Origin: a virus
IMG/VR virus record: IMGVR_UViG_3300013126_000140
Coordinates: 1 to 31,858 of that record
Reading direction: 5' to 3' (one strand)
DNA: 31,858 nt
This document shows positions 5,845-30,240 of this stretch, one piece after another (within the stretch, counting starts at the first letter, position 1; each line of letters opens with the position of its first letter). The notes below the pieces were generated by a model, which had not been told where the DNA came from, did not search any database, and saw only the letters and a program-made list of their open reading frames with translations. The translations under genes and the position numbers were made by a program.

Positions 5845-6624
5845 TTACTCACCCCAGTGTTTTTCACGAAGTTCGTAAATATCAATTGGTTCTCGTTTCA
5901 TATGAGAACCTTGATTAAAGTATGCACCTTTCTTCAAATATCCACCCAAAAAGTTTCTTCTGAATCTATTAGAATTATTTGATTCTGAGCCATGAACACA
6001 ATGTGAGTGAAGTAGAACTACTTGACCTTTTTTAATAATTCCTTCTATTTTTCGGAAATCATGACCTTCTGGCATTACACACGGTTTACCTCTTTCATTT
6101 CTCCAAAATTTAGGATTAGTTTTTGTTCTTTCTTCATCTACTTCAATTGGTAGAACTGGTAATCTATGAGAACCTTCGTAATTCCAAACTGCTCCATTCT
6201 CTTTATCGTGATTATCTAATGCAAGAGCAGTATTGATGATTTCATTATGACCACAACCAGTATAAAATGCGTTTTGATGTTGGTCTCTACCCAACTGTCC
6301 TGGTGGTTTAAAGTATGACCAAGTTTGTAATCCTACTAATTCACCTTCCATCAGGAATTCCATTGCCTCAATCAACTTTGGATGGGCGAAAAGTTTTTCT
6401 AATTTTGATGATAATTTATGTGGATATGCAAATGGGTCCCACTCTCCCCATTCTTCACCATTATCTTTGGTGGTTAATTGTCTTTCTTGACGAAGTCTTT
6501 CTAACTCATCATTGATTTCATCACATTCTTCTTCGGTCAAAAGTTCTATTGTGGTAAATCCTCTATATCGCCAATCAAAGGTCAATTGTTGGATTTCTTC
6601 TTGTGTAAGGTGTTTAAATAACAT
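5845..6624 (-). CDS. Phytanoyl-CoA dioxygenase-like (PhyH) Fe(II)/2-oxoglutarate oxygenase
   Basis: This 259-aa protein has the PhyH layout: an N-terminal helix pair (LLTEEECDEINDELERLRQE), then WSYFKPPGQ at 102-110, the proximal metal motif HQN at 116-118, LALDNHDKENGAVWNYEGSH at 134-153 (the usual 'aLDd.d.eNGal...GSH' signature), and the distal VHGSESNNSNRFRRN at 210-224, with His211 as metal ligand and Arg220 or Arg222 for 2-oxoglutarate. The proximal motif is normally HxD; here the acidic ligand is Asn118. Family members hydroxylate small molecules or residues; the substrate is unknown. It is the last gene of the tail module, before a terminator, with its own late octamer, so a virion-related or late metabolic role is plausible. 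Confidence 0.88.
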   Translation of the reverse strand: MLFKHLTQEEIQQLTFDWRYRGFTTIELLTEEECDEINDELERLRQERQLTTKDNGEEWGEWDPFAYPHKLSSKLEKLFAHPKLIEAMEFLMEGELVGLQTWSYFKPPGQLGRDQHQNAFYTGCGHNEIINTALALDNHDKENGAVWNYEGSHRLPVLPIEVDEERTKTNPKFWRNERGKPCVMPEGHDFRKIEGIIKKGQVVLLHSHCVHGSESNNSNRFRRNFLGGYLKKGAYFNQGSHMKREPIDIYELREKHWGE

Positions 6625-16904: not shown

Positions 16905-19229
16905 TTATGAGGTGAATGATGCACCAGTTGGTAAGATATTGAAATCTAACACGATGAATTCAGCAGTTCTTGTTGGTTGTAAGAAAATCTGTCCAGCCAA
17001 GATGTTTCTATCGATTACATCAGGTGTATTGTTAGTTTCATCCATCACTACTCTGAATGCAAATAAACCTTGTCTTTGTTGGATTCCTTCTAAGTAAGGA
17101 TTTACTGTATTCAAGAATCTTGAACGAGTTTGTGATGTATTTTGTTCAAATACCAAGTATCTTGAAGTAGATGCGATGTATTTCTTAACTTTAATCAACA
17201 ATCTTCTAACATTGATTCTATCTAACGCAGATGCTCTATCTTGAAGAGTTTTCTGTCCAAATGCTACAATACCTTCTCCAGGGAATTGAGCGATTGGGTT
17301 TACTTTGTTTTCATAAAGAGTATCTCTTTCAGCATGAGTCAATCTATTCAATACACTAACTGCACCAGTGATACCACCTCTATTCAAACCAGCAGGAGCA
17401 AACCATTCTGCTGCAATAGCATCATTGGCTGCGTAAATTCCTGGCATCAATACTGATGGTGGGACAATTGTTAATTTGTTTGTTCTCGAATCAATTGTTT
17501 TAACCCAAGGGTAGTATGAACCTACATAGTTAGAATCTACACTTTGTGCTTGTAATGTTACTAAATCAATTGAATCATCGTAATCACTTAGTTCACCGAT
17601 ATAGAAAGCATCCTCTCTAGCTTCTACCATATCAACAATCTTATCAAATACATAAGAGTGTAATCTTCTAACAACTCCAGGTGCAGCTACCAAGTTGATA
17701 TCAAAATCATCAGGATTAGATACTGCATTAATCGCTTTTACATAAGCAACTGAACCACTTGTTGTAGGATTAGCTAAGTTAAATCCTTGTGAGTTACCAG
17801 AACCCCATTCAGTATCATTATTTTTTGCTAAAGCATGTTTTACGGTTGGAGTTATTCCATCAAATCCACCTTGGAATCCTACTGTAAATTGTCTTTTTGC
17901 AACATCAGTAGTGTTTGACCCAGTCAACAAATAATTAAATGGTGCATCATCAAATGTGAAACTTGTATTTGAACCAGTACTAGCGTTATTTGGAATTGGT
18001 GCCAAGAAATAATTATTATCTACTTTTACAATTGGAGTTTCCAAATCAATACCTGAATATCTAAATGTGGATGATGCAGTATTATCAACAGAAGAAGTTG
18101 AGAAAACGATTGCAGGAGTTATTGAATCATTTCCTCTAATTGGAGAGTAATATGATTCATGTCCAAATGGACCTGCTGTAATTGGGAAAGAACCTTCTTC
18201 CGAAACTTCTACTCTAACCAATCTTGAACGATTCGTGTAATCACCATTCATTGACATTTTACCATTTCCATCAATAGTAATGTTTTGGTCACCAATTACT
18301 TTTAAGATGTAATTTGGAGATAATGGGTCTAAGTTTACATTATTGTAAGTTTCTAAGATAGATTTTCTTCTATCAGTATCAGAATATCCTCTAATTACAA
18401 CAGAGAAAGTTGCGTAATCAGTCGCATTTGATTCACCAGCTGCTTTTACATTAAAAATTGAAATTTTGTATTCAGTATTAGCGTAAGTACCATCACCTAT
18501 TGTATGGAATCGGAATAACTGATGTGTTTCACCTGAGATTTCTTGTGAAATAATCCAAGGAGTAGATGCAAAAGAACAGTCTTGGTCTGCAAAACTTTGT
18601 TCTCCTAAAGATACTAATGAAACTTCTGAACCAGATGATATATTGAATATTGATGCTGCAGCATTTTCAAAAAATTGAGATACATAAACACCTTTTGAAC
18701 CTCTTGGATTACCGCCAAATACATCTGATAAATCATTTCCAGCTGTATATAAGATAGATGCAGAAATTGCAGTATTGTATGCAGAATCAGAACCACTTAA
18801 TGTGATACTAAATGCAGATGATGATTCTTGTGCATCAATAGAAGCAGTGATAGCATCACCATTACCTGATGTAGTCCAGTTGTGAGTTGATTTTAGAACA
18901 CCAACTAATTTTTCTCCATTTGAACCTGATACTTTAATACCAACAGTTCCTCGTTGAGTATATCCACCGATATGTCCAACACGAACAATAGTTACTGTTC
19001 CAGCTTCTCTTAAATAATTTTGAACCGAGTAACCAGTATAGTATGAACCATCTGGTGTACCAAATATTGATTCAAATTCTGATTGAGTGTTTACTACGGT
19101 TGGAACGAAAGCAGGTCCTTTAACAAAAGGTCCGATAATTGCTGCTCCGATTTCTCCAATACCTTGTGATAAGAAAGATAAGTCATTCTCTCTTGTAAAT
19201 ACACCAGGTGATACAATCTTTTCTGCCAT
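16905..19229 (-). CDS. Contractile tail sheath protein (T4 gp18-like)
   Basis: This 774-aa protein opens KIVSPGVFTRENDLSFLSQG then IGEIGAAIIGPFVKGPAFVP and TQSEFESIFG, the standard sheath N terminus. The C terminus has the conserved ERDTLYENKVNPIAQFPGEG region, VAFGQKTLQDRASALDRINV, RRLLIKVKKYI and the final RTAEFIVLDFNILPTGASF strand. Those C-terminal strands form the inter-subunit mesh of the contracting sheath. The middle (about 120-480) contains Ser/Thr-rich variable domains exposed outside, making it longer than T4 gp18 (659 aa). AAGGAGT precedes the start. It is upstream of the tube gene, the usual order. Confidence 0.96.
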   Translation of the reverse strand: MAEKIVSPGVFTRENDLSFLSQGIGEIGAAIIGPFVKGPAFVPTVVNTQSEFESIFGTPDGSYYTGYSVQNYLREAGTVTIVRVGHIGGYTQRGTVGIKVSGSNGEKLVGVLKSTHNWTTSGNGDAITASIDAQESSSAFSITLSGSDSAYNTAISASILYTAGNDLSDVFGGNPRGSKGVYVSQFFENAAASIFNISSGSEVSLVSLGEQSFADQDCSFASTPWIISQEISGETHQLFRFHTIGDGTYANTEYKISIFNVKAAGESNATDYATFSVVIRGYSDTDRRKSILETYNNVNLDPLSPNYILKVIGDQNITIDGNGKMSMNGDYTNRSRLVRVEVSEEGSFPITAGPFGHESYYSPIRGNDSITPAIVFSTSSVDNTASSTFRYSGIDLETPIVKVDNNYFLAPIPNNASTGSNTSFTFDDAPFNYLLTGSNTTDVAKRQFTVGFQGGFDGITPTVKHALAKNNDTEWGSGNSQGFNLANPTTSGSVAYVKAINAVSNPDDFDINLVAAPGVVRRLHSYVFDKIVDMVEAREDAFYIGELSDYDDSIDLVTLQAQSVDSNYVGSYYPWVKTIDSRTNKLTIVPPSVLMPGIYAANDAIAAEWFAPAGLNRGGITGAVSVLNRLTHAERDTLYENKVNPIAQFPGEGIVAFGQKTLQDRASALDRINVRRLLIKVKKYIASTSRYLVFEQNTSQTRSRFLNTVNPYLEGIQQRQGLFAFRVVMDETNNTPDVIDRNILAGQIFLQPTRTAEFIVLDFNILPTGASFTS

Positions 19230-19308: not shown

Positions 19309-19590
19309 TTATTGAGTAACCTCATTATTTATGGGAGTAAATATGCCAGTATTTGGGTCATAATTACCATCACCATACTTTTCATTCAAACTTTTAAATA
19401 ATTCTAATTCGGTATTCACCAATTCTTTGTGTTTTTCTAATAGTTGAGTTTCAAATTCATCTAATTCATCGTTTCTTCTTTTTCTCTCAACCGAAAGTTG
19501 TCCTAATTGAGTAAAAACGAGTTCAACATCTGTTTTTAACTGATTAATTGAATTGATTTCTTCTTGCGTAAACTTGATTTGTTCCATCAT
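19309..19590 (-). CDS. Small coiled-coil protein upstream of the sheath
   Basis: This 93-aa protein is a long amphipathic helix with heptad-like spacing (INSINQLKTDVELVFTQLGQ, LSVERKRRNDELDEFETQLL, KHKELVNTELELFKSLNEKY), ending in an unstructured GDGNYDPNTGIFTPI tail. Similar short helical proteins occur beside tail genes in T4-like marine phages, but no role is established that I can name. The second Met (19587) is an equally good start. An octamer lies 33 bases upstream. It may act in tail assembly, by inference from position. Confidence 0.68.
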   Translation of the reverse strand: MMEQIKFTQEEINSINQLKTDVELVFTQLGQLSVERKRRNDELDEFETQLLEKHKELVNTELELFKSLNEKYGDGNYDPNTGIFTPINNEVTQ

Positions 19591-19671: not shown

Positions 19672-20940
19672 TTAACTAACTACGGTAAATTCAAGAGGGG
19701 TTGACCATGCACCTTTTAATCCTTGGTCAATTGCTCGTACTCTGAACCAAAATGTTCCTGCTAATAAAAGACTGAATACTTCAACAATATTAGTACTCCA
19801 TTCATCTGCCGTATTTGTGACAGTTGCAAATGTGTTAGATGTTGCTATTTGCCATTCATATGCAGTGATACCAGTAGTTCCAGTTGAAGCAGGAGCAGTC
19901 CAAGTTATATTTGGATCAGTGTAGGTTACATTTGTTGGTGCACCCGGTGCAGGTAAATCAGTATGAGAATTACCACCTTTGTTGTGAGTAATATATCCAT
20001 TGACCATATAAGTATCTTCTGATTCAACATCAATAGAGACAATTTCGGTTGTTTTTTCAACGATTTCTATTGTTGTAATATCTACTTCAGTATTATCACC
20101 TTTAACCAATTTATCACCAACTACCAAGTTAAACATTTCTTTGAATAAGTAATCACCACTTACTGAATCTTTTACCAACATTGGGTGTTCTGCAGTAGCA
20201 GTAACCTCTCCATTATTAATATCATAATAACGAGGAGCGAAAGAATAAGTTAAATTAACAATTGTTACATCTTTTGGAGTAGTTGAAAGAGAGTTAGATG
20301 ACCAATCCAAGAAAGTTCCATCAGAATCTTCACCTAAACCACCAATTGAGAATCCTTTTAATAAATCTCCTTCATTCAAATCACCTGCTTCTACAATAGT
20401 TCCATCTGCCAAAGTGACAGGAGAATCAATCGTTAAACATAACGCAGTTGAGTTTCCATCATATGAATCTACCGAATAAACGGTCTTTGTTCTTGCAGTG
20501 TTATATCTAACTGCGTGTTGATTGAATCCATCTGCAAAAGTAGCAGAAACGGTATGAGAAATAATTGATTGTAAAACAGTTTGAGTAGATGCATTTGTCA
20601 TATTACCTACTGCAATAGTAGCAGAAGCACCATTATTTGCAGAAACCGATAATTTATCACCACCCGATATACCCCAAGTAACATTTGCACCTCTATCACT
20701 TATTTGAGAAAATCTAGTACCCCCTCCAGTAGTTCCTAAAGTGTAAGTTTCTGAAGTATTTTCTACTGCGTAAGTAAAACCTGATACATCATCAATTGAA
20801 TCTACTGCATAAGCAGAAAGACCAGTTGTAGTTGCAGAACCACGAATAGTACCAAGTGAAACATTAGAATTTTGTGTATTTCCAGTAGCACCTGCTAGTG
20901 CATTGAGTGATAAAGTATCTCCTGAAGTAAGTGTTGGCAT
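19672..20940 (-). CDS. Virion protein with an internal intein-like Hint domain and C-terminal fibronectin III domain
   Basis: The 422-aa protein has three parts. Residues 1-167 are a Ser/Thr/Gly-rich structural domain (GDTLSLNALAGATGNTQNSN). Residues 168-320 are a Hint domain: Cys168 starts CLTIDSPVTLADGT, block B is TAEHP with Thr249 and His252, then MVNGYITHN with His319-Asn320 at the end. Residues from about 329 form a fibronectin III domain (PGAPTNVTYTDPNITWTAP through RVRAIDQGLKGAWSTPLEF). All class 1 intein catalytic residues are seen, but the +1 residue is Lys321, not Cys, Ser or Thr, and no homing endonuclease is present. Like bacterial intein-like domains it should cleave rather than splice, releasing an N-terminal piece of about 18 kDa and the FN3 piece. 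It lies between fibre and sheath genes. Confidence 0.85.
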   Translation of the reverse strand: MPTLTSGDTLSLNALAGATGNTQNSNVSLGTIRGSATTTGLSAYAVDSIDDVSGFTYAVENTSETYTLGTTGGGTRFSQISDRGANVTWGISGGDKLSVSANNGASATIAVGNMTNASTQTVLQSIISHTVSATFADGFNQHAVRYNTARTKTVYSVDSYDGNSTALCLTIDSPVTLADGTIVEAGDLNEGDLLKGFSIGGLGEDSDGTFLDWSSNSLSTTPKDVTIVNLTYSFAPRYYDINNGEVTATAEHPMLVKDSVSGDYLFKEMFNLVVGDKLVKGDNTEVDITTIEIVEKTTEIVSIDVESEDTYMVNGYITHNKGGNSHTDLPAPGAPTNVTYTDPNITWTAPASTGTTGITAYEWQIATSNTFATVTNTADEWSTNIVEVFSLLLAGTFWFRVRAIDQGLKGAWSTPLEFTVVS

Positions 20941-20951
20941 AATATCGTTCC

Positions 20952-21947
20952 CTATATATTATAAATATAAAGTAATTCGTCTACCCACTTTTGTTTATCT
21001 GAAAAATTCATTATCATAAATGATTTAATTTTATTAAACCAAAAAGATTTTTCATTATAAGGGGTTTCCAATAACTTACTATAAATATCAACAAACTCCT
21101 TTTTAGATGAAACTCGGTAAGGATATTCTAATTCTTTACACCAATTATTATGTATTATTGGTAATTTACCTCTATCTACCGATTCAAATATAGAATATCC
21201 AAATGGTTCGGATGAAAATGCAGAATGAGATATTCCCCAATCCATATTATAAAATTTATCTTTGAATGATGAGTCATAATGATAAATTTTTGATTTTGAT
21301 GTATCTATCTTAGCACCATTTTTCCAAATTGAGTTAAATTCGTATGAATTAGTAAAAATATAAGATTTTAATCCATCTAAATAATGTGGATTCTTTCTAC
21401 CCTCACATCTTGCTGAAAATCCTAAATTATTTGATTCTGAAAGTGGTAAATCCCATTTAAAATCATAAAAATTACGAATATTCTTGTTTGGAATCAAAAT
21501 ATCGTATAATCCTATCCAAATTGAATGAGTTGCCCATTCATTTACTTGTGTTTCCCAAGAAGAATCCAAGTAAGGGTGCCAACCAAGTGATGCATCGGTT
21601 CCAACTTGTGATTTTATGATATGATCTACTGAATTGTGGAGAATATTTGAATGAATTTTATGTTTATTCTCTTCAATAACTCCCATCGGAGTATAATGAC
21701 CATGTAGAATGTTAATTCTTCTTGCACCTCTACAAATTTTTTCTACTTTTTGGATATCATCACCATGCCAGTATGCTTCTATTGGAAATTTGTACTCTTC
21801 ATGTCCTTTTGGTCGGTTTCGGTGAAGAATAAGGATAGGTTTTACCTTTAATTTCGGTGCAACTAACTCCATCCATAAATTTACCCAAGTATCTGTCCCT
21901 GCATTTACCCAAGGACCTCCACCAGTAGTATAATAGACATCGTACAT
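20952..21947 (-). CDS. Probable GT-B glycosyltransferase embedded in the fibre module
   Basis: This 331-aa protein starts with YYTTGGGPWVNAGTDTWVN, a Gly-rich N-terminal loop after the first strand as in GT-B enzymes. A C-terminal nucleotide-sugar site is EPFGYSIFE at 247-255 (E-x7-E) followed by DRGKLPIIHNN, the family GT4 style 'E.fG...lEa...G.PvI'. LHGHYTP at 81-87 fits an N-terminal domain loop. Donor and acceptor are unknown. The start overlaps the 283-aa fibre gene stop by one base and the stop lies 12 bases ahead of the Hint gene. It is thus inside the fibre operon, which suggests it glycosylates fibre or virion proteins, though cell-surface modification is also possible. Confidence 0.72.
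   Translation of the reverse strand: MYDVYYTTGGGPWVNAGTDTWVNLWMELVAPKLKVKPILILHRNRPKGHEEYKFPIEAYWHGDDIQKVEKICRGARRINILHGHYTPMGVIEENKHKIHSNILHNSVDHIIKSQVGTDASLGWHPYLDSSWETQVNEWATHSIWIGLYDILIPNKNIRNFYDFKWDLPLSESNNLGFSARCEGRKNPHYLDGLKSYIFTNSYEFNSIWKNGAKIDTSKSKIYHYDSSFKDKFYNMDWGISHSAFSSEPFGYSIFESVDRGKLPIIHNNWCKELEYPYRVSSKKEFVDIYSKLLETPYNEKSFWFNKIKSFMIMNFSDKQKWVDELLYIYNI
20963..20970 (-). promoter_or_regulatory. Candidate late promoter octamer upstream of the Hint gene
   Basis: The sense strand reads CTTTATATTTATAATATATA; ATATTTAT lies 23 bases before the ATG, within the last codons of the glycosyltransferase gene. Confidence 0.45.
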
Positions 21948-22894: not shown

Positions 22895-25261
22895 TTAAAA
22901 TCTTGACTTTAATTCGTCAATTTGTTTTTGTTGTTCCTTAATTGCCTCAATTAAAAGACCAGTCAATTTAGCATAATCTACACCTTTGAACCCATTTTCT
23001 CTATCGTGAACTAATTGGGGAAAAACTTTCTCTACATCTTGAGCAATTACACCAATATTTGGTAATGATTGTTGTAATTCATCTGCATTTTCATTCCATT
23101 CCCAAGTTACACCTTTTAATTGTTTTACTTTTTCAATTGGATTCAAGATGATTTCTATATTATTCTTTAATCTTTCATCCGATGATGCGAAAGCAACAAC
23201 ATCACCCCCAACATTTAGGGCTCCACTCACACCAACACCACCAGTTACTATAAGAGCACCAGTTGTTTTTGTAGTTGAAGCGGTTGAGTCAGTAATATTA
23301 ACTGCCGCAGAAAATGTTTTGGCACCACTAAATGTTTGAGTTGTGGTTAAGTGAGCAGTATCAGCATCTAAATAAGCAGATGCGATAACCGAACCTTGCC
23401 AAGTTCCTGTTCCAATTGTACCAAGAGTTGTGATTGAAGTTTGTCCAACATAAGTTGAAGCAATATCAACTGCATCTGCGGATACAGAAATTCTGTTGGT
23501 TGTACCTACAACATTAAGAGTTCTTGTGGATGATATATCACCACCACCAGTTAAACCATCACCTGCTGTAATTGATACTGCGGTATGATCAATATGTCTA
23601 TTTGCAGAATACCCAGTTGTAGAATCGTGTGATATTTGAGATGAACCTGAAACTACTCCACCTCCTGCTGAAATTGTATGTGTAATACCTTCACCTGAAG
23701 TTGCACCACTTGAAACAATACCATTTCCTGCAGTAATTGTTGCTACATAATTACCTGAAGTTCTTGTTCCTAAAGCAATATCACCAGTAGTTGATGAAAC
23801 ATTAATTTGTGATGAACCAGAAACGATTCCAGCAGGAATAGAAGAGATATTTGCGTAAGTAATTTGTGATGAACCTGATACTACTCCACTTGGAAGTAGT
23901 GGTGTTACTTGGGATGACCCTGAAACGATTCCAGTACCCCCTAAAACTTGTCCTGAACCTGATACTACACCACTTGGTAAAATTGCAGTAACACTACCAG
24001 CAGTTACGGTACCAATTGTAGTAATTGAATCATCACCACTATATGTACCACCAGCAACGGCTGCGAGTGTTGCATTATATGCCTGAACATCAGTTCCAAT
24101 TGCTACTCCTAAATTAGTTCTAGCAGTAGAGGTATTAGTTAAATCTGATAAGTTTGCTGATTTAGCCAGTTTACCATCAACTAATGTATTTAGTGTAGAA
24201 TCACCTGCCGCGAGTGAAGCAGAAATTTCAATTAAAGTATCAAATGCAGCATTAGCTCCACCGATTAAATCGGTTAGTTCTTGTTGAACATATGCAGTGG
24301 TTGCAATTTGAGTTGAGTTTGTATTTGCAACTGCAGTTGGAGCAGTTGGAGTTCCTGTAAAATCAGGAGAGGTAAACATCGTTGCTTTACTTTCGTTAGT
24401 TACATTTTGTAAAGATAAGAAAGTTTTAACATTTGATGCTGAACCTGAAACTACTAAATCTGCATCTAATTTATCTTTTACATTAGTATCAAAGTTAGTG
24501 ATTGAATCAGCATTAACTTGAAAAGATCCAGATACTACACCGCTTGGCAGTAAAGGTGTTACTTGAGCAGAACCCGATACAATACCTGCTGGAATGGAAG
24601 AAATTCCTGAATAAGTAATTTGAGATGAACCTGATACGATTCCAGCTGGAATAGAAGATATACTAGCATAATTTACTTGAGATGAACCTGATATAACTGC
24701 ATCTAAGTTCATCTTATCCTTGACATTTGAATCAAAATTAGTGATTGAATCAGCATTAACTTGAGATGAACCAGATACTACTCCACTTGGAAGTAATGGT
24801 GTTACTTGTGCCGAACCACTAACTATGCCTGCAGGAATCGAAGAAACTGATGCATAAGTGATTTGTGATGAACCTGATACTACTCCACTTGGAAGTAAAG
24901 GGGTTACTTGTGATGAACCAGAAACAATTCCGGCAGGAATATTTGATAGGCCAGGATACGAAACCTGAGATGAACCAGAAACTACACCATCACCTAAAGT
25001 ATCCAAAAATATTTCAGATAATTGAGCAGAAGATGATACAATACCACTTGGGATATTTGAAAGGCTTGGGTATGATACTTGTGAAGAGCCAGAAACCAAA
25101 GTTGGTTTTCCAGTTACATTATTAAATGCAACTGAATCTGCCTCTAAACCTACGAAGTTACCAACTCCTGTAAATGAACCCGAAAACGAACCACTTAAAT
25201 TTGCATACGCGGATTCTGCTTGATTTATTGAACCCGAAAATATTGGACTATGTATTATCAT
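22895..25261 (-). CDS. Tail fibre with SGSSQ repeats and C-terminal S74 self-cleaving chaperone
   Basis: The 788-aa protein begins with a short Ser/Gly-rich domain and then a repeat region (residues 56-275) with sixteen copies in the whole protein of a six-residue motif, typically VSGSSQ, alternating with LLPSG and SIPAG linkers. A middle domain (QIATTAYVQQELTDLIGGAN, a fibre motif) leads to TGALIVTGGVGVSGALNVGG. The end is an S74 intramolecular chaperone: SSDERLKNNI with Ser694 and Lys699 as the known Ser-Lys pair of endosialidase-type chaperones, GVIAQDVEKVFPQLV, and a coiled-coil helix EAIKEQQKQIDELKSRF. The chaperone trimerises the fibre and then cuts itself off before Ser694. The likely role is host recognition. 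Confidence 0.88.
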   Translation of the reverse strand: MIIHSPIFSGSINQAESAYANLSGSFSGSFTGVGNFVGLEADSVAFNNVTGKPTLVSGSSQVSYPSLSNIPSGIVSSSAQLSEIFLDTLGDGVVSGSSQVSYPGLSNIPAGIVSGSSQVTPLLPSGVVSGSSQITYASVSSIPAGIVSGSAQVTPLLPSGVVSGSSQVNADSITNFDSNVKDKMNLDAVISGSSQVNYASISSIPAGIVSGSSQITYSGISSIPAGIVSGSAQVTPLLPSGVVSGSFQVNADSITNFDTNVKDKLDADLVVSGSASNVKTFLSLQNVTNESKATMFTSPDFTGTPTAPTAVANTNSTQIATTAYVQQELTDLIGGANAAFDTLIEISASLAAGDSTLNTLVDGKLAKSANLSDLTNTSTARTNLGVAIGTDVQAYNATLAAVAGGTYSGDDSITTIGTVTAGSVTAILPSGVVSGSGQVLGGTGIVSGSSQVTPLLPSGVVSGSSQITYANISSIPAGIVSGSSQINVSSTTGDIALGTRTSGNYVATITAGNGIVSSGATSGEGITHTISAGGGVVSGSSQISHDSTTGYSANRHIDHTAVSITAGDGLTGGGDISSTRTLNVVGTTNRISVSADAVDIASTYVGQTSITTLGTIGTGTWQGSVIASAYLDADTAHLTTTQTFSGAKTFSAAVNITDSTASTTKTTGALIVTGGVGVSGALNVGGDVVAFASSDERLKNNIEIILNPIEKVKQLKGVTWEWNENADELQQSLPNIGVIAQDVEKVFPQLVHDRENGFKGVDYAKLTGLLIEAIKEQQKQIDELKSRF
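24437..25096 (-). repeat. Coding repeats of the 788-aa fibre
   Basis: Residues 56-275 contain imperfect repeats built from VSGSSQ plus linkers. A block beginning VNADSITNFDSNVKDKMN recurs 81 residues (243 bases) later as VNADSITNFDTNVKDKLD, and a third near-identical copy is in the 1426-aa fibre at about 26460-26520. Confidence 0.8.
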
Positions 25262-25959: not shown

Positions 25960-28900
25960 TTATCCTCTATTAATTTTTTCTTTTAATTCTTCAACTTGTT
26001 GTGATAAATCTTTAATACCTTCTATTAGTAATGATACTAACTTATCGTATTTTACAGCTTTATACCCATTTTCTCTTGTTTCTACCAATTCAGGAAGGAT
26101 TTTTTCAATTTCTTGGGCAATAACTCCGTAATCTTTACCTTTATAAATATCTTGTTTTTCTTCATTCCACACAAAAGAATATCCACCAATTTGATTAATT
26201 TTTTGTAAAGGATTAGAAATTAATTCTAAATTATTTTTTAATCTAATATCAGAGGATGCGTAAGCAACAACATCACCTCCTGCAAATATATCACCACTTG
26301 TTCCAATACCACCAGTTACCACTAAAGCACCAGTTGTTTTAGAAGTTGAAGCAGTTGAGTTAGTAATTGATATTGTTGTGGATGTAGTATTACCAGCAGT
26401 TGTTACTTCTTGTAAAGTTTTTGTAATTTGTGCTGAACCCGATACAACTGCATCTGCATTTAATTTATCTTTTACATTAGAATCAAAGTTAGTAATTGAA
26501 TCTGCGTTTACTTGGGATGAACCAGAAACTACACCACTTGGGAGTAAAGGAGTTACTTGAGATGAACCAGAAACAATCCCAGCAGGAATATTTGATAAAT
26601 TTGGATAGGAAACTTGAGATGAGCCAGAAATTAAGTTATTTGCAGATACTGTTCCATTAACAACTAAATTACCATTTACCTGAGAATTTGAATTTAATGT
26701 AATTAAAGTTCCACTATCTGAAATATTTGAATCATTCAAGTGATGATTATCAACTGCTTTTGGAATTCTATTAGAAGTTAAATAAGTTGGAGTTCCTTTT
26801 GTTGTATATTCGGGTCCAAAAATTGATACTGCAAAATCTACACCAGTAGAAGATGAGTATTCATACCCCCAATCGTTGGTTTGACCATCAAAATACAAAG
26901 ATGCCGTAGAAGGATTAGAACCCGAATCTATGATTATTAAACCAGCATATCTTTCAGCTGGAGTGTTGTTATTTAATTGTATAAATGCATCACCAATAAT
27001 TTTAGCAGAACCGGTTACTGATTCGATATGTGCGAACGAACCAGTTCCATTAACAACAATATTAGTGAATGTTTTTGTTCCACTTATGGTTTGATCACCA
27101 ACTAATGTAACATATCTATTATCATAAGATGATGTTAATTGTGATGAACCTGATACTAAAGTATGAGTCCCACTTGCTTTTTCTTCATATAATCCATCTA
27201 ATGAAGATGAATTTGATTCCAGCGAATCTAATCTCGAATCTACCGATTGAGAGAAGATATTGAAATTTTCATTTGATGAAGAAAGGATACCGCTTCCACC
27301 AATAACTTGGTTAGAACTTGAAACAATTCCACTTGGAATGTTTGATAAATCAGGATAAGATACTTGTGAAGAACCACTAACAATACCACTCGGTATAGAT
27401 GAAAGTGAAGTATAGATCACCTGAGAAGACCCACTTACTACTCCACTTGGTAATAAAGTAGTTATTTGAGATGATCCTGATATAATTCCACTTGGAATGT
27501 TTGATAAAGCAGGATAAGATACTTGAGATGACCCAGAAACTACACCACCAATTACATCTGCAGTTATTGTATCAACATTTCTAGTAAAGTTGATAGTAGT
27601 TGTATCACTAAATGTTAATGGATTTTCATTTGTCTCACCTTCAATCGAATCCAAACGAGAATCAAATGATGCAGAATCCAATAAATAAGAACCCGTATTA
27701 AGTTTAGTTGCAATTGAATCAATTAAACTACTTGTTGCACTTCCTAATTCTTGTTGTGTAACAAACCCAGCATCTAAAGAAGATGAGAATAATTCCAAAT
27801 CATCCAATCGAGTATCAACTGATTGTGAGAATGTTGATATTGTTGAATTTACACCATCAATAAAATGGACAGAACTTGTATCCAAAGAAAGTGTTGCTGG
27901 TCCTGAAACTGCCCCACCACTAATACCTTGTCCTGCAACAACTGCAGTAATATCACCTGCACCAATAATCAATAATTGTTCATCAATATAATCTTTTACT
28001 GCACCTGCATTACCTAAAACTTGTGGGTTACCATCGGATATGGATGCAGATACATTATACCATGCAGCAGAACCTAAAGAACCTGAAATTTGGTGAATAC
28101 CGACTAATTGTGCAACTGAACCTGATACTTCGTATCGTGTATCTAATGATTGTGTTAATTGTGATGAACCAGATACTATACCACCAATTACATCACCACT
28201 AATTACACCATTTGTAATTGTAAAATAAATCGTGGACGAATCAGATGACGAGGAAACTATACCTTCTACGTTTAATTTATTTTTAATAGTAGTATCAATA
28301 GAAGAAGTAAATCCTTCTAAATTATTTACTCTATTATCAGTAGATTGTGTGTATGAATTATAAAATCCATTTATAGTTTCTTGTGAAGAAGTAAATCCTT
28401 CTAAACTTGTCAATCTGCCACCTTGTGAACCCGAATCGGTTTCTAATTGAGAGATTCTACTATCTTGTGATGCAGAATCTAATTCTAAACTTGTTAATCT
28501 ATCACCAAATGAGCTTGAGAATGTAGTATACCCATTTGTTTGAGTTAAATCTATTTGAGATGAACCAGAAACTACACTATCACCATCTTTTCTAAGATAT
28601 AATGAATCCAAAGATGCGGTTATTTGTGATGACCCTGATAAAATATCATCGCCACCTCGTAATAATACAACGGATTCAGAACCACTAGGTCCAGCAACCC
28701 ATCTATCTATGGTAGAATCCCATAACATAGAACCTGATGTTAAAGTTCCAGTTGCATCTTTAACATAAAGACCACCTTTTGTTAATGCTCCACCATAATT
28801 TAATTCAATTATATTCTCACCAATATTAACTTGAGTTGAATCAATTTGGGTTGTCGTTCCTAATACAACCAAATCACCATTAACGGTTAAGTTTGAACCA

Positions 28901-30240
28901 GTAACCGAGATTGCAGTTTTTAACGATGCTGTATATTGGTTTATTTCAGAAATAGATACATCTACTGATGCAGATTTTTGTTCTAAATTATCTAATCTGC
29001 CATCTTGTGATGGTAAAGTACCAACAAATGACCCACTAAATACTGACGCAGTTATACTACCTAATACATTTACATCACCACTAAAATAAGTAGTACTTGA
29101 ACTTACTATTAATTGTTCTGAATCTGCAGTTATTAAACGATTAGTTCCTCTTATTTGTAAATTATCTGCAATTACATCACCATTGACTTCTATACTACCA
29201 GTTTGAATAATTGTTCCACTTATAAGTGTGGAACCTGATAATATTGTTAGACCTATGTTTCTAAAAGTAGATGACCCACTTACCGTCAAAGAACCACTTA
29301 AAAATATATCCCCAACTTGATGAGTAGACCCACTCATAAAAATTGAACCAGTTATAGTTTGGTCGCCTATAAATGTATTAGATTGAGTAGTTGCAAATCC
29401 TAAATTGTTTACCTTAGAATCTATTGATGCTGAAAAAGTATCAAAATCGGTTACTGATGATGATAATAAACCATCAGGAAGGGTTATTTTATCTAAAATT
29501 AATAAACTACTATCACCTTCTAATGTCACATCACCATTAATATCAACAGGACCCACTAACATTGCGTTATATCCATCAGGAACTGTGAATCCATTTAAAG
29601 TTTTTGGGTTAATATATACTTGTGATTTTATTGTACCACTTACATCAATTGATCCACTTATAGTTTGTGACCCACTAAATACATTTGAACCAGTTGTTGC
29701 AAAAGTTTGGTTTAAATCTTCTTGTGAAGATGTAAATAGTTGTAAATTATCTAAACGAGAATCAACTGATTGAGAAAAGGTTGTAAAATTTTCATTTGAT
29801 GATGATAAAATACCACTTCCTGGTAAAGAAATATTATCAATTGATGCAGAAACTACATGGAGTTCGTTAAATCTTTTACTTGGAGAACCTAAATCATCTT
29901 GACCATCTACTTGTGGAATCAATGAACCAGTAAATGGTGCATTTACCGTAATAATATCATTAGAACCTGTTCCTAATACGATATTTCCACCAATTAATAC
30001 ATTACCATCGATTTTTGCATCACCTGTAATATCAAGGGTTGACCCTGAAATACCACCGTTGATACTTAAATTTCCGATTAATGTGATATTACCAGTATTT
30101 GAACCTAATTTTACAAGAGTAAAAACACCACTTGTACCACCTACATTTAATGTATTTGTACTTGTATTAAAAAATAATTCGGATTGAGATAAACTTGGTG
30201 TGGTTGTTCCTCTTCTTAATGTTAATATTGCTGCAGCCAT
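25960..30240 (-). CDS. Long tail fibre (1426 aa) with C-terminal S74 self-cleaving chaperone
   Basis: The protein opens AAAILTLRRGTTTPSLSQSE then LFFNTSTNTLNVGG, a fibre attachment motif, and GSLIPQVDGQDDLGSPSKRF near residue 105. The long shaft contains many short coiled or triple-helix segments (FSQSVDSRLDNLQ and relatives) and thirteen copies of SGSSQ-type motifs. A domain near 460-520 (LGTTTQIDSTQVNIGENIIE, LNYGGALTKGGLYVKDATG) is repeated in the edge-truncated fibre gene. The end is an S74 chaperone, SSDIRLKNNL with Ser1330 and Lys1335, then YGVIAQEIEKILPELVE and a coiled coil. It is probably the main receptor-binding long fibre. It has a late octamer upstream. Confidence 0.88.
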   Translation of the reverse strand: MAAAILTLRRGTTTPSLSQSELFFNTSTNTLNVGGTSGVFTLVKLGSNTGNITLIGNLSINGGISGSTLDITGDAKIDGNVLIGGNIVLGTGSNDIITVNAPFTGSLIPQVDGQDDLGSPSKRFNELHVVSASIDNISLPGSGILSSSNENFTTFSQSVDSRLDNLQLFTSSQEDLNQTFATTGSNVFSGSQTISGSIDVSGTIKSQVYINPKTLNGFTVPDGYNAMLVGPVDINGDVTLEGDSSLLILDKITLPDGLLSSSVTDFDTFSASIDSKVNNLGFATTQSNTFIGDQTITGSIFMSGSTHQVGDIFLSGSLTVSGSSTFRNIGLTILSGSTLISGTIIQTGSIEVNGDVIADNLQIRGTNRLITADSEQLIVSSSTTYFSGDVNVLGSITASVFSGSFVGTLPSQDGRLDNLEQKSASVDVSISEINQYTASLKTAISVTGSNLTVNGDLVVLGTTTQIDSTQVNIGENIIELNYGGALTKGGLYVKDATGTLTSGSMLWDSTIDRWVAGPSGSESVVLLRGGDDILSGSSQITASLDSLYLRKDGDSVVSGSSQIDLTQTNGYTTFSSSFGDRLTSLELDSASQDSRISQLETDSGSQGGRLTSLEGFTSSQETINGFYNSYTQSTDNRVNNLEGFTSSIDTTIKNKLNVEGIVSSSSDSSTIYFTITNGVISGDVIGGIVSGSSQLTQSLDTRYEVSGSVAQLVGIHQISGSLGSAAWYNVSASISDGNPQVLGNAGAVKDYIDEQLLIIGAGDITAVVAGQGISGGAVSGPATLSLDTSSVHFIDGVNSTISTFSQSVDTRLDDLELFSSSLDAGFVTQQELGSATSSLIDSIATKLNTGSYLLDSASFDSRLDSIEGETNENPLTFSDTTTINFTRNVDTITADVIGGVVSGSSQVSYPALSNIPSGIISGSSQITTLLPSGVVSGSSQVIYTSLSSIPSGIVSGSSQVSYPDLSNIPSGIVSSSNQVIGGSGILSSSNENFNIFSQSVDSRLDSLESNSSSLDGLYEEKASGTHTLVSGSSQLTSSYDNRYVTLVGDQTISGTKTFTNIVVNGTGSFAHIESVTGSAKIIGDAFIQLNNNTPAERYAGLIIIDSGSNPSTASLYFDGQTNDWGYEYSSSTGVDFAVSIFGPEYTTKGTPTYLTSNRIPKAVDNHHLNDSNISDSGTLITLNSNSQVNGNLVVNGTVSANNLISGSSQVSYPNLSNIPAGIVSGSSQVTPLLPSGVVSGSSQVNADSITNFDSNVKDKLNADAVVSGSAQITKTLQEVTTAGNTTSTTISITNSTASTSKTTGALVVTGGIGTSGDIFAGGDVVAYASSDIRLKNNLELISNPLQKINQIGGYSFVWNEEKQDIYKGKDYGVIAQEIEKILPELVETRENGYKAVKYDKLVSLLIEGIKDLSQQVEELKEKINRG
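26440..26640 (-). repeat. Fibre repeats shared between the 1426-aa and 788-aa genes
   Basis: This block encodes LISGSSQVSYPNLSNIPAGI, VSGSSQVTPLLPSGVV and VNADSITNFDSNVKDKLN. It is nearly identical in protein, and closely similar in DNA, to blocks at 24460-24560 and 24710-24960, giving long runs of near-identity between two separate fibre genes. Confidence 0.7.

Follow-up and report, generated by a model that had tools for sequence, protein, structure and literature searches.

The window analysed here, a 31,858-nucleotide stretch of viral DNA (IMG/VR record IMGVR_UViG_3300013126_000140), carries in its tail gene cluster a gene for a protein in which a Hint domain parts an N-terminal region (N-part) from a fibronectin type III (FN3) region, and in which the residue directly behind the Hint (+1) is a lysine that is fixed throughout the family. 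We tentatively propose, as a reading that falls a little short of probable, that this domain resembles type A bacterial intein-like (BIL) domains and may ligate the N-part to the FN3 part with Lys321 as the acceptor. The gene and the parts of its product are as follows.

19672-20940, minus strand: Hint gene, encoding a 422-residue precursor of 44.5 kDa (open reading frame, sequence and computed mass).
20440-20940, minus strand: N-part, residues 1-167, 17.0 kDa, ending in ...VYSVDSYDGNSTAL (alignment of 54 members; Leu167 at -1 invariant).
19981-20439, minus strand: Hint domain, residues 168-320, 16.6 kDa, without endonuclease (AlphaFold2 pLDDT 86.9; BIL2 and inteins the nearest folds).
20437-20439, minus strand: Cys168, Hint residue 1 and predicted thioester former (invariant, 54/54; sole Cys of the protein).
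20185-20196, minus strand: block B, T249-A-E-H252 (H 54/54, T 51/54).
19996-20046, minus strand: block F region, residues 299-315, EIVSIDVESEDTYMVNG (family alignment).
19981-19986, minus strand: His319-Asn320, predicted C-terminal cyclising pair (invariant, 54/54).
19978-19980, minus strand: Lys321, the +1 residue and proposed acceptor (155/155 family ORFs; Lys otherwise 1.0% of the C-part).
19675-19980, minus strand: C-part, residues 321-422, 10.9 kDa (sequence and computed mass).
19687-19935, minus strand: FN3 domain, residues 336-418 (Pfam fn3, 25.2 bits, cut-off 25).

In the proposed scheme, Cys168 would take over the carbonyl of Leu167 as a thioester and Asn320 would cyclise and cut behind itself, both steps being suggested by the conserved active site, and Lys321, with which the FN3 part begins, would act as the amine acceptor, with its epsilon-amine attacking the thioester. 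The 16.6-kDa Hint would be released and the N-part covalently joined to the FN3 part in a 27.9-kDa product, the link most likely being an isopeptide bond. We infer that the Hint is active, that Lys is its acceptor and that the product resides in the virion; lysine is taken as the acceptor because this family keeps it at +1 in a C-part with few other lysines, and because short tails carry one at varying positions from +1 to +8. The first-pass annotation had named fragments of 18, 16 and 11 kDa, of which the first is slightly high (17.0 kDa computed for the N-part) and the others compare with computed masses of 16.6 kDa for the Hint and 10.9 kDa for the C-part.

Judged from an AlphaFold2 model built on the 54-sequence family alignment (mean pLDDT 86.9, pTM 0.50, residues 324-328 below 50), domain 168-320 has the Hint (hedgehog/intein) fold. 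The best match of the model in the PDB was Tetrahymena BIL2 (Foldseek E 8.6e-10, TMt 0.80; VIA Z 19.9, 1.9 Å, 141 aligned), which a profile of the Hint domain also ranked first (E 0.0016); the next-nearest folds were the Clostridium thermocellum BIL and then class 1 inteins, with VIA Z scores of 18.5 for the C. thermocellum BIL, 18.3 for the Ssp DnaB intein and 17.1 for hedgehog. In the VIA superpositions, residue 168 falls on intein residue 1 and residue 320 on the last Asn, and the domain spans the solved inteins from end to end (Z 12.6-19.9); an endonuclease would not fit, as the first-pass annotation had read from the sequence. Curated sequence models matched the domain below their cut-offs: Pfam PT-HINT (PF07591) at 21.5 bits versus 27.7, NCBIfam intein_Nterm at 20.0 versus 24.5, and Pfam Intein_splicing at 12.3 versus 35.8. 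A search of genome contigs with the Hint domain alignment found no relative, and another scan of viral sequences, with the Hint plus the FN3 region, recovered known contigs only.

The reaction residues that had been noted in the single sequence (Cys168, TAEH at 249-252 and the terminal His319-Asn320) proved to be those that the family conserves. In a 54-member alignment, sampled at about 80% identity from members that are 35-89% identical to the window protein, L167, C168, H252, H319, N320 and K321 are invariant, and T249 is T in 51, N in two and S in one; Cys168 is the only Cys in the protein. By hand alignment, block F differs from that of many inteins at two positions: 302 is Ser/Thr instead of Asp/Asn, and 309 is Asp instead of His. 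The complete, invariant active site makes self-processing of the protein a well supported prediction, and to that extent the earlier interpretation, which foresaw self-cleavage or cross-linking, stands; the missing acceptor that it assumed is doubtful.

Of the flanking regions, the FN3 domain recognised earlier is borne out by a Pfam match (PF00041) at 336-418, at 25.2 bits just over the curated cut-off of 25. The description of the N-part as virion-type fared differently: we found no informative homologue of it, and the PHROG virion match of the whole protein (42.2 bits) is obtained almost wholly from the Hint domain (42.0 bits alone), so homology does not support a virion identity for the N-part. 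Matches of the whole protein in the structure searches (fold lists) were likewise taken up by the Hint and FN3 domains. A virion context for the Hint protein is suggested by synteny alone: the gene lies within a tail cluster, with tail sheath and tail tube genes downstream and tail-fibre-like genes upstream (PHROG matches), and in a conserved order of 331-residue gene, Hint gene, 93-residue gene and sheath.

20952-21947, minus strand: conserved 331-residue neighbour of the Hint gene (upstream in 78/78 loci with room).
19309-19590, minus strand: conserved 93-residue neighbour, between Hint gene and sheath (103/103 loci).
16905-19229, minus strand: tail sheath, constant downstream neighbour of the Hint gene (phrog_23, E 1e-68; 103/103 loci).

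These counts cover 103 loci for the sheath and, for the 331-residue gene, the 78 with more than 1,200 bases upstream, some contigs being counted twice. The 331-residue protein gave no Pfam or PDB profile match, and its fold prediction (pLDDT 44) was judged too poor for a structure search.

That the residue after Asn320 is Lys, as first read from HNKGG at 319-323, holds for the entire family. All 155 distinct ORFs of the family have K at +1 and 154 have G at +2, with +3 variable, and behind Lys321 there is always an FN3 part. Composition offers no explanation for K321, since lysines account for 1.0% of residues 322-422 and 2.3% of the N-part, and the presence of K321 in 155 of 155 ORFs in front of an otherwise nearly Lys-free C-part argues that Lys321 is no accident. 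No Hint-less relative of the N-part occurs among the best 80 of 108, of which 79 show HNK and one ends before that point.

Lysine at +1 recurs in other Hints. IMG/VR and GTDB genomes were scanned with the pattern TYxxNGxxVHN, which is blind to the +1 residue, and all counts refer to the matches listed; among these, +1 was K in 25 of 100 distinct viral ORFs and 37 of 111 distinct genomic ORFs. A block-F-like filter removed 25 rows (two with K) and left 93 distinct ORFs in each set; among the matches listed, +1 was then C/S/T in 59, K in 24 and another residue in 10 viral ORFs, and C/S/T in 36, K in 36 and another residue in 21 genomic ORFs. Lysine was thus by far the commonest residue among the non-C/S/T rows listed (24/34 viral, 36/57 genomic). 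In the same listed non-C/S/T rows, K stood at +3 in 2/32 viral and 1/51 genomic cases, at +5 in 6/30 viral cases (G/K-rich linkers) and at +2 in 11/52 genomic cases (DKGG-type). Single-linkage clustering of the listed non-C/S/T matches, in which the tandem loci L493 and L500 were counted twice, gave clusters with K in 46 of 74 at 60% identity, 21 of 39 at 45% and 5 of 9 at 35%, and on a weakly resolved Hint tree (124 rows, 134 columns) the K label changes 15 times, at least 4 of them on starred branches.

Two further patterns set the bounds of this trend. Among the matches listed for DTYxxNGxxxHN, 106 distinct ORFs (12 duplicate rows removed) had K at +1 in 98, P in 2, S in 2, L in 2, R in 1 and T in 1, most of the K being contributed by the window protein's own family. 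Among those listed for NFxxNGxxVHN, 116 of 119 distinct ORFs were kept and had S in 58, C in 47, T in 7, K in 3 and V in 1; as these are nearly pure inteins (112/116 C/S/T), lysine is a feature of some Hints and not of all His-Asn ends. Other placements of the lysine were also seen: a separate group of genomic Hints (L462, L463, L480, L485, L509 and relatives) has D/E/Q directly behind HN and KG(G) next, with Lys at +2 instead of +1, and at ten bacterial loci (L446, L458, L493, L500, L503, L513, L515, L517, L534, L549) a Hint ending in HN is followed by a Lys-Gly dipeptide only, behind which the next Hint starts with CFLP.

The non-family Hints nearest to the phage Hint on the tree lie at protein C-termini, and every one of their tails holds a Lys (HN-PAEKLPGFES, HN-RPVKI, HN-KDIP, HN-LENAPGEKQIT, HN-STLKN). 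Under a looser filter, tails of at most 15 residues not starting with Cys contained Lys in 37 of 39 cases versus 13.6 expected at 7% Lys or 16.2 at 9%, a count in which the two Lys-less tails (L248, L453) had earlier been dropped as not Hint-like, four tails come from phage proteins chosen for likeness to the window protein, and several tails are related to one another. Across 1,157 ORFs from the same loci, the last 10 residues had a background Lys frequency of 7.3%. Nine of the 39 proteins end in plain HNK, and in the short tails overall the Lys lies anywhere from +1 to +8, being present also where +1 is another residue (Pro, Arg, Leu or Val). The trend was checked in data that had not been used for noticing it: the matches listed for NFxxNGxxVHN gave the short tails HN-K, HN-KV and HN-KK, and 368 genomes of one phylum, with seven re-found Hints (L718-L724) excluded, gave five new Hints, of which four had tails within 15 residues (KH, KH, VAIKPQ and TLNKNGSSSNGAI) and were used, L729 (36 residues, +1 K) being left out. 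Lys was present in 7/7 of these few, partly related tails versus 1.6 expected (product of chances 6.5e-6). An N-end-rule reading of the +1 lysine was rejected as the main idea, tail Lys occurring at +2 to +8 as well.

On three phage contigs (L254, L284, L317), the central tail fibre protein gpJ, as identified by phrog_31 (E 3e-114 to 6e-94), carries at its very start a Hint with K at +1. This Hint is set within a G/K-rich stretch, ...KGG-[Hint]-KGGGKG... or ...GAKG-[Hint]-KGGGK..., and the Hint-less gpJ of other phages starts with one such stretch, for example MRIYGAKGGGGSSHTP or MATDKVLKGRKGGSSSS. Ordinary gpJ has no Hint, and natural Hint-less alleles of these K+1 proteins therefore exist; ligation across the gpJ Hint would give back something like the Hint-less stretch, and C-terminal cleavage would nearly do so too.

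Among known systems, profile search, Foldseek and VIA all put BIL2, from the BUBL1 polyubiquitin locus of Tetrahymena (PDB 6Y75, 6TMM), closest among solved folds. Like the phage Hint it has no Cys/Ser/Thr at +1, and passages of PMC8616854 report that it splices through a lysine epsilon-amine with formation of an isopeptide bond. The two differ in that the accepting lysine of BIL2 lies elsewhere, in ubl5, according to the same passages, that its +1 residue is Met in the crystals, and that its flanks are eukaryotic and ubiquitin-like; BIL2 is therefore a precedent for the chemistry and not for the position of the lysine. By hand count, its Zn ligand His125 in block F corresponds to Ser/Thr302 in the phage family (Ser302 in the window protein), so the Zn activation of BIL2 is not shared. 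Type A BILs are defined in parts of PMC4031507 and PMC7664689 as Hints with a His-Asn end and no Cys/Ser/Thr at +1, and the phage Hint fits this sequence definition, resembling the C. thermocellum BIL (PDB 2LWY) in Cys1, block B TxxH, terminal His-Asn, the lack of Cys/Ser/Thr at +1 and the fold (VIA Z 18.5). According to PMC7765530, BILs are located in the hypervariable parts of bacterial proteins that are not conserved; the phage Hint departs from this setting and from type A BILs generally in its strict Lys at +1 and in its conserved gene with fixed neighbours in 103/103 loci. Its fold and reaction residues (Cys at residue 1, block B TxxH, terminal His-Asn) are also those of class 1 mini-inteins (Ssp DnaB, Mtu RecA, gp41-1), from which it differs in having no +1 nucleophile. 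Among the best 80 of 108 N-part relatives no Hint-less allele was seen; for other K+1 Hints, those in gpJ, such alleles exist. A class 3 intein (no residue-1 nucleophile, block F Cys) was ruled out by Cys at residue 1 and Ser/Thr302 in block F. Related Hints, at about 29-32% identity, are found in the phrog_38766 proteins of Erwinia/Yersinia jumbo phages and Phage NCTB, which are annotated as virion structural or intein domain; unlike the window protein, these have the Hint at the C-terminus with a tail of 7-10 residues, Thr, Val or Ala at +1, Lys at +6 and no FN3 behind. Three Erwinia/Yersinia jumbo-phage virion proteins (L361, L363, L364) combine collagen-like GXY repeats with a C-terminal Hint and a 10-residue tail in which +1 is Thr or Val and Lys is retained at +6.

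The claim that splicing lacks its acceptor here goes too far and is doubtful, since passages of PMC4031507 describe type A BILs that can splice without a +1 nucleophile, passages of PMC8616854 give BIL2 the epsilon-amine of a lysine, and Lys is strongly enriched at +1 and in the tails. What the Hint does with Lys321 admits several readings. It may only cleave, at Asn320, Cys168 or both, and part the N-part from FN3, with Lys321 helping Asn cyclisation or thioester hydrolysis or simply making a good product N-terminus. We consider this somewhat unlikely, and the same auxiliary roles of Lys are what could be held against a lysine acceptor. BILs without a +1 nucleophile mostly cleave, as portions of the reviews state (PMC4031507, PMC7765530, PMC7664689), and in the close relatives, with C-terminal Hints and tails of 4-11 residues, ligation would seem to bring little gain; a single ligated lysine in the proteins ending in HNK would be of no obvious use. 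Cleavage needs no lysine, yet one is retained somewhere from +1 to +8 in the short tails, and in the family an FN3 part always stands behind Lys321.

A traceless route, in which Asn320 cyclises first and the alpha-amine that this frees on Lys321 then takes over the thioester to leave a normal peptide bond, Lys being favoured for speed or fit, appears unlikely to us. Ligation through a freed alpha-amine has been proposed for type A BILs (passages of PMC4031507), and the gpJ Hints, set in a G/K-rich stretch that ligation would return to something like its Hint-less form, would suit it; this route is, however, open to any +1 residue, and predicts neither Lys at +1 nor a tail Lys behind a +1 Pro, Arg, Leu or Val. 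That the Hint is an inactive relic or a structural spacer in a protein that stays full length is highly improbable: the unusual block F (Ser302, Asp309) and the sub-threshold scores of the curated Hint and intein models could point that way, and against them stand reaction residues that are all invariant in 54/54 members of a family 35-89% identical to the window protein. Ligation through the epsilon-amine of Lys321 is the reading that we tentatively retain.

Extended beyond this family, lysine-acceptor ligation would mean that a large, recurrent class of phage and bacterial Hints is tuned to a lysine acceptor, at +1 or in a short tail, whose epsilon-amine takes the thioester so that the flanks become isopeptide-joined; this broader reading is speculative and on balance doubtful. 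If it is true, the flanks would be conjugated in a ubiquitin-like, self-catalysed reaction independent of ATP, which in this phage would serve to attach an FN3 domain to a tail-associated protein. Passages of the reviews picture BIL-type Hints as having no C-side nucleophile and mainly cleaving; a strict Lys common to many unrelated Hint hosts suggests an overlooked acceptor, which would explain the purpose of many such Hints, bring branched, isopeptide-linked products into phage structural biology and offer a compact, enzyme-free tool for protein-lysine ligation. In the literature searched we did not find Lys at +1 of Hint or BIL domains, the primary BIL and BIL2 papers (Amitai 2003, Dassa 2004, Chiarini 2021) may report such a Lys, and the novelty of the lysine +1 acceptor idea is provisional.

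Elsewhere in the window, 22895-25261 and 25960-30240 encode two tail-fibre-like proteins rich in VSGSSQV-type repeats, whose C-terminal ends bear what we take to be a likeness to the motif of the self-cleaving S74 chaperone domain, and 5845-6624 holds an ORF of 259 residues whose product is presumably a phytanoyl-CoA dioxygenase-type enzyme.
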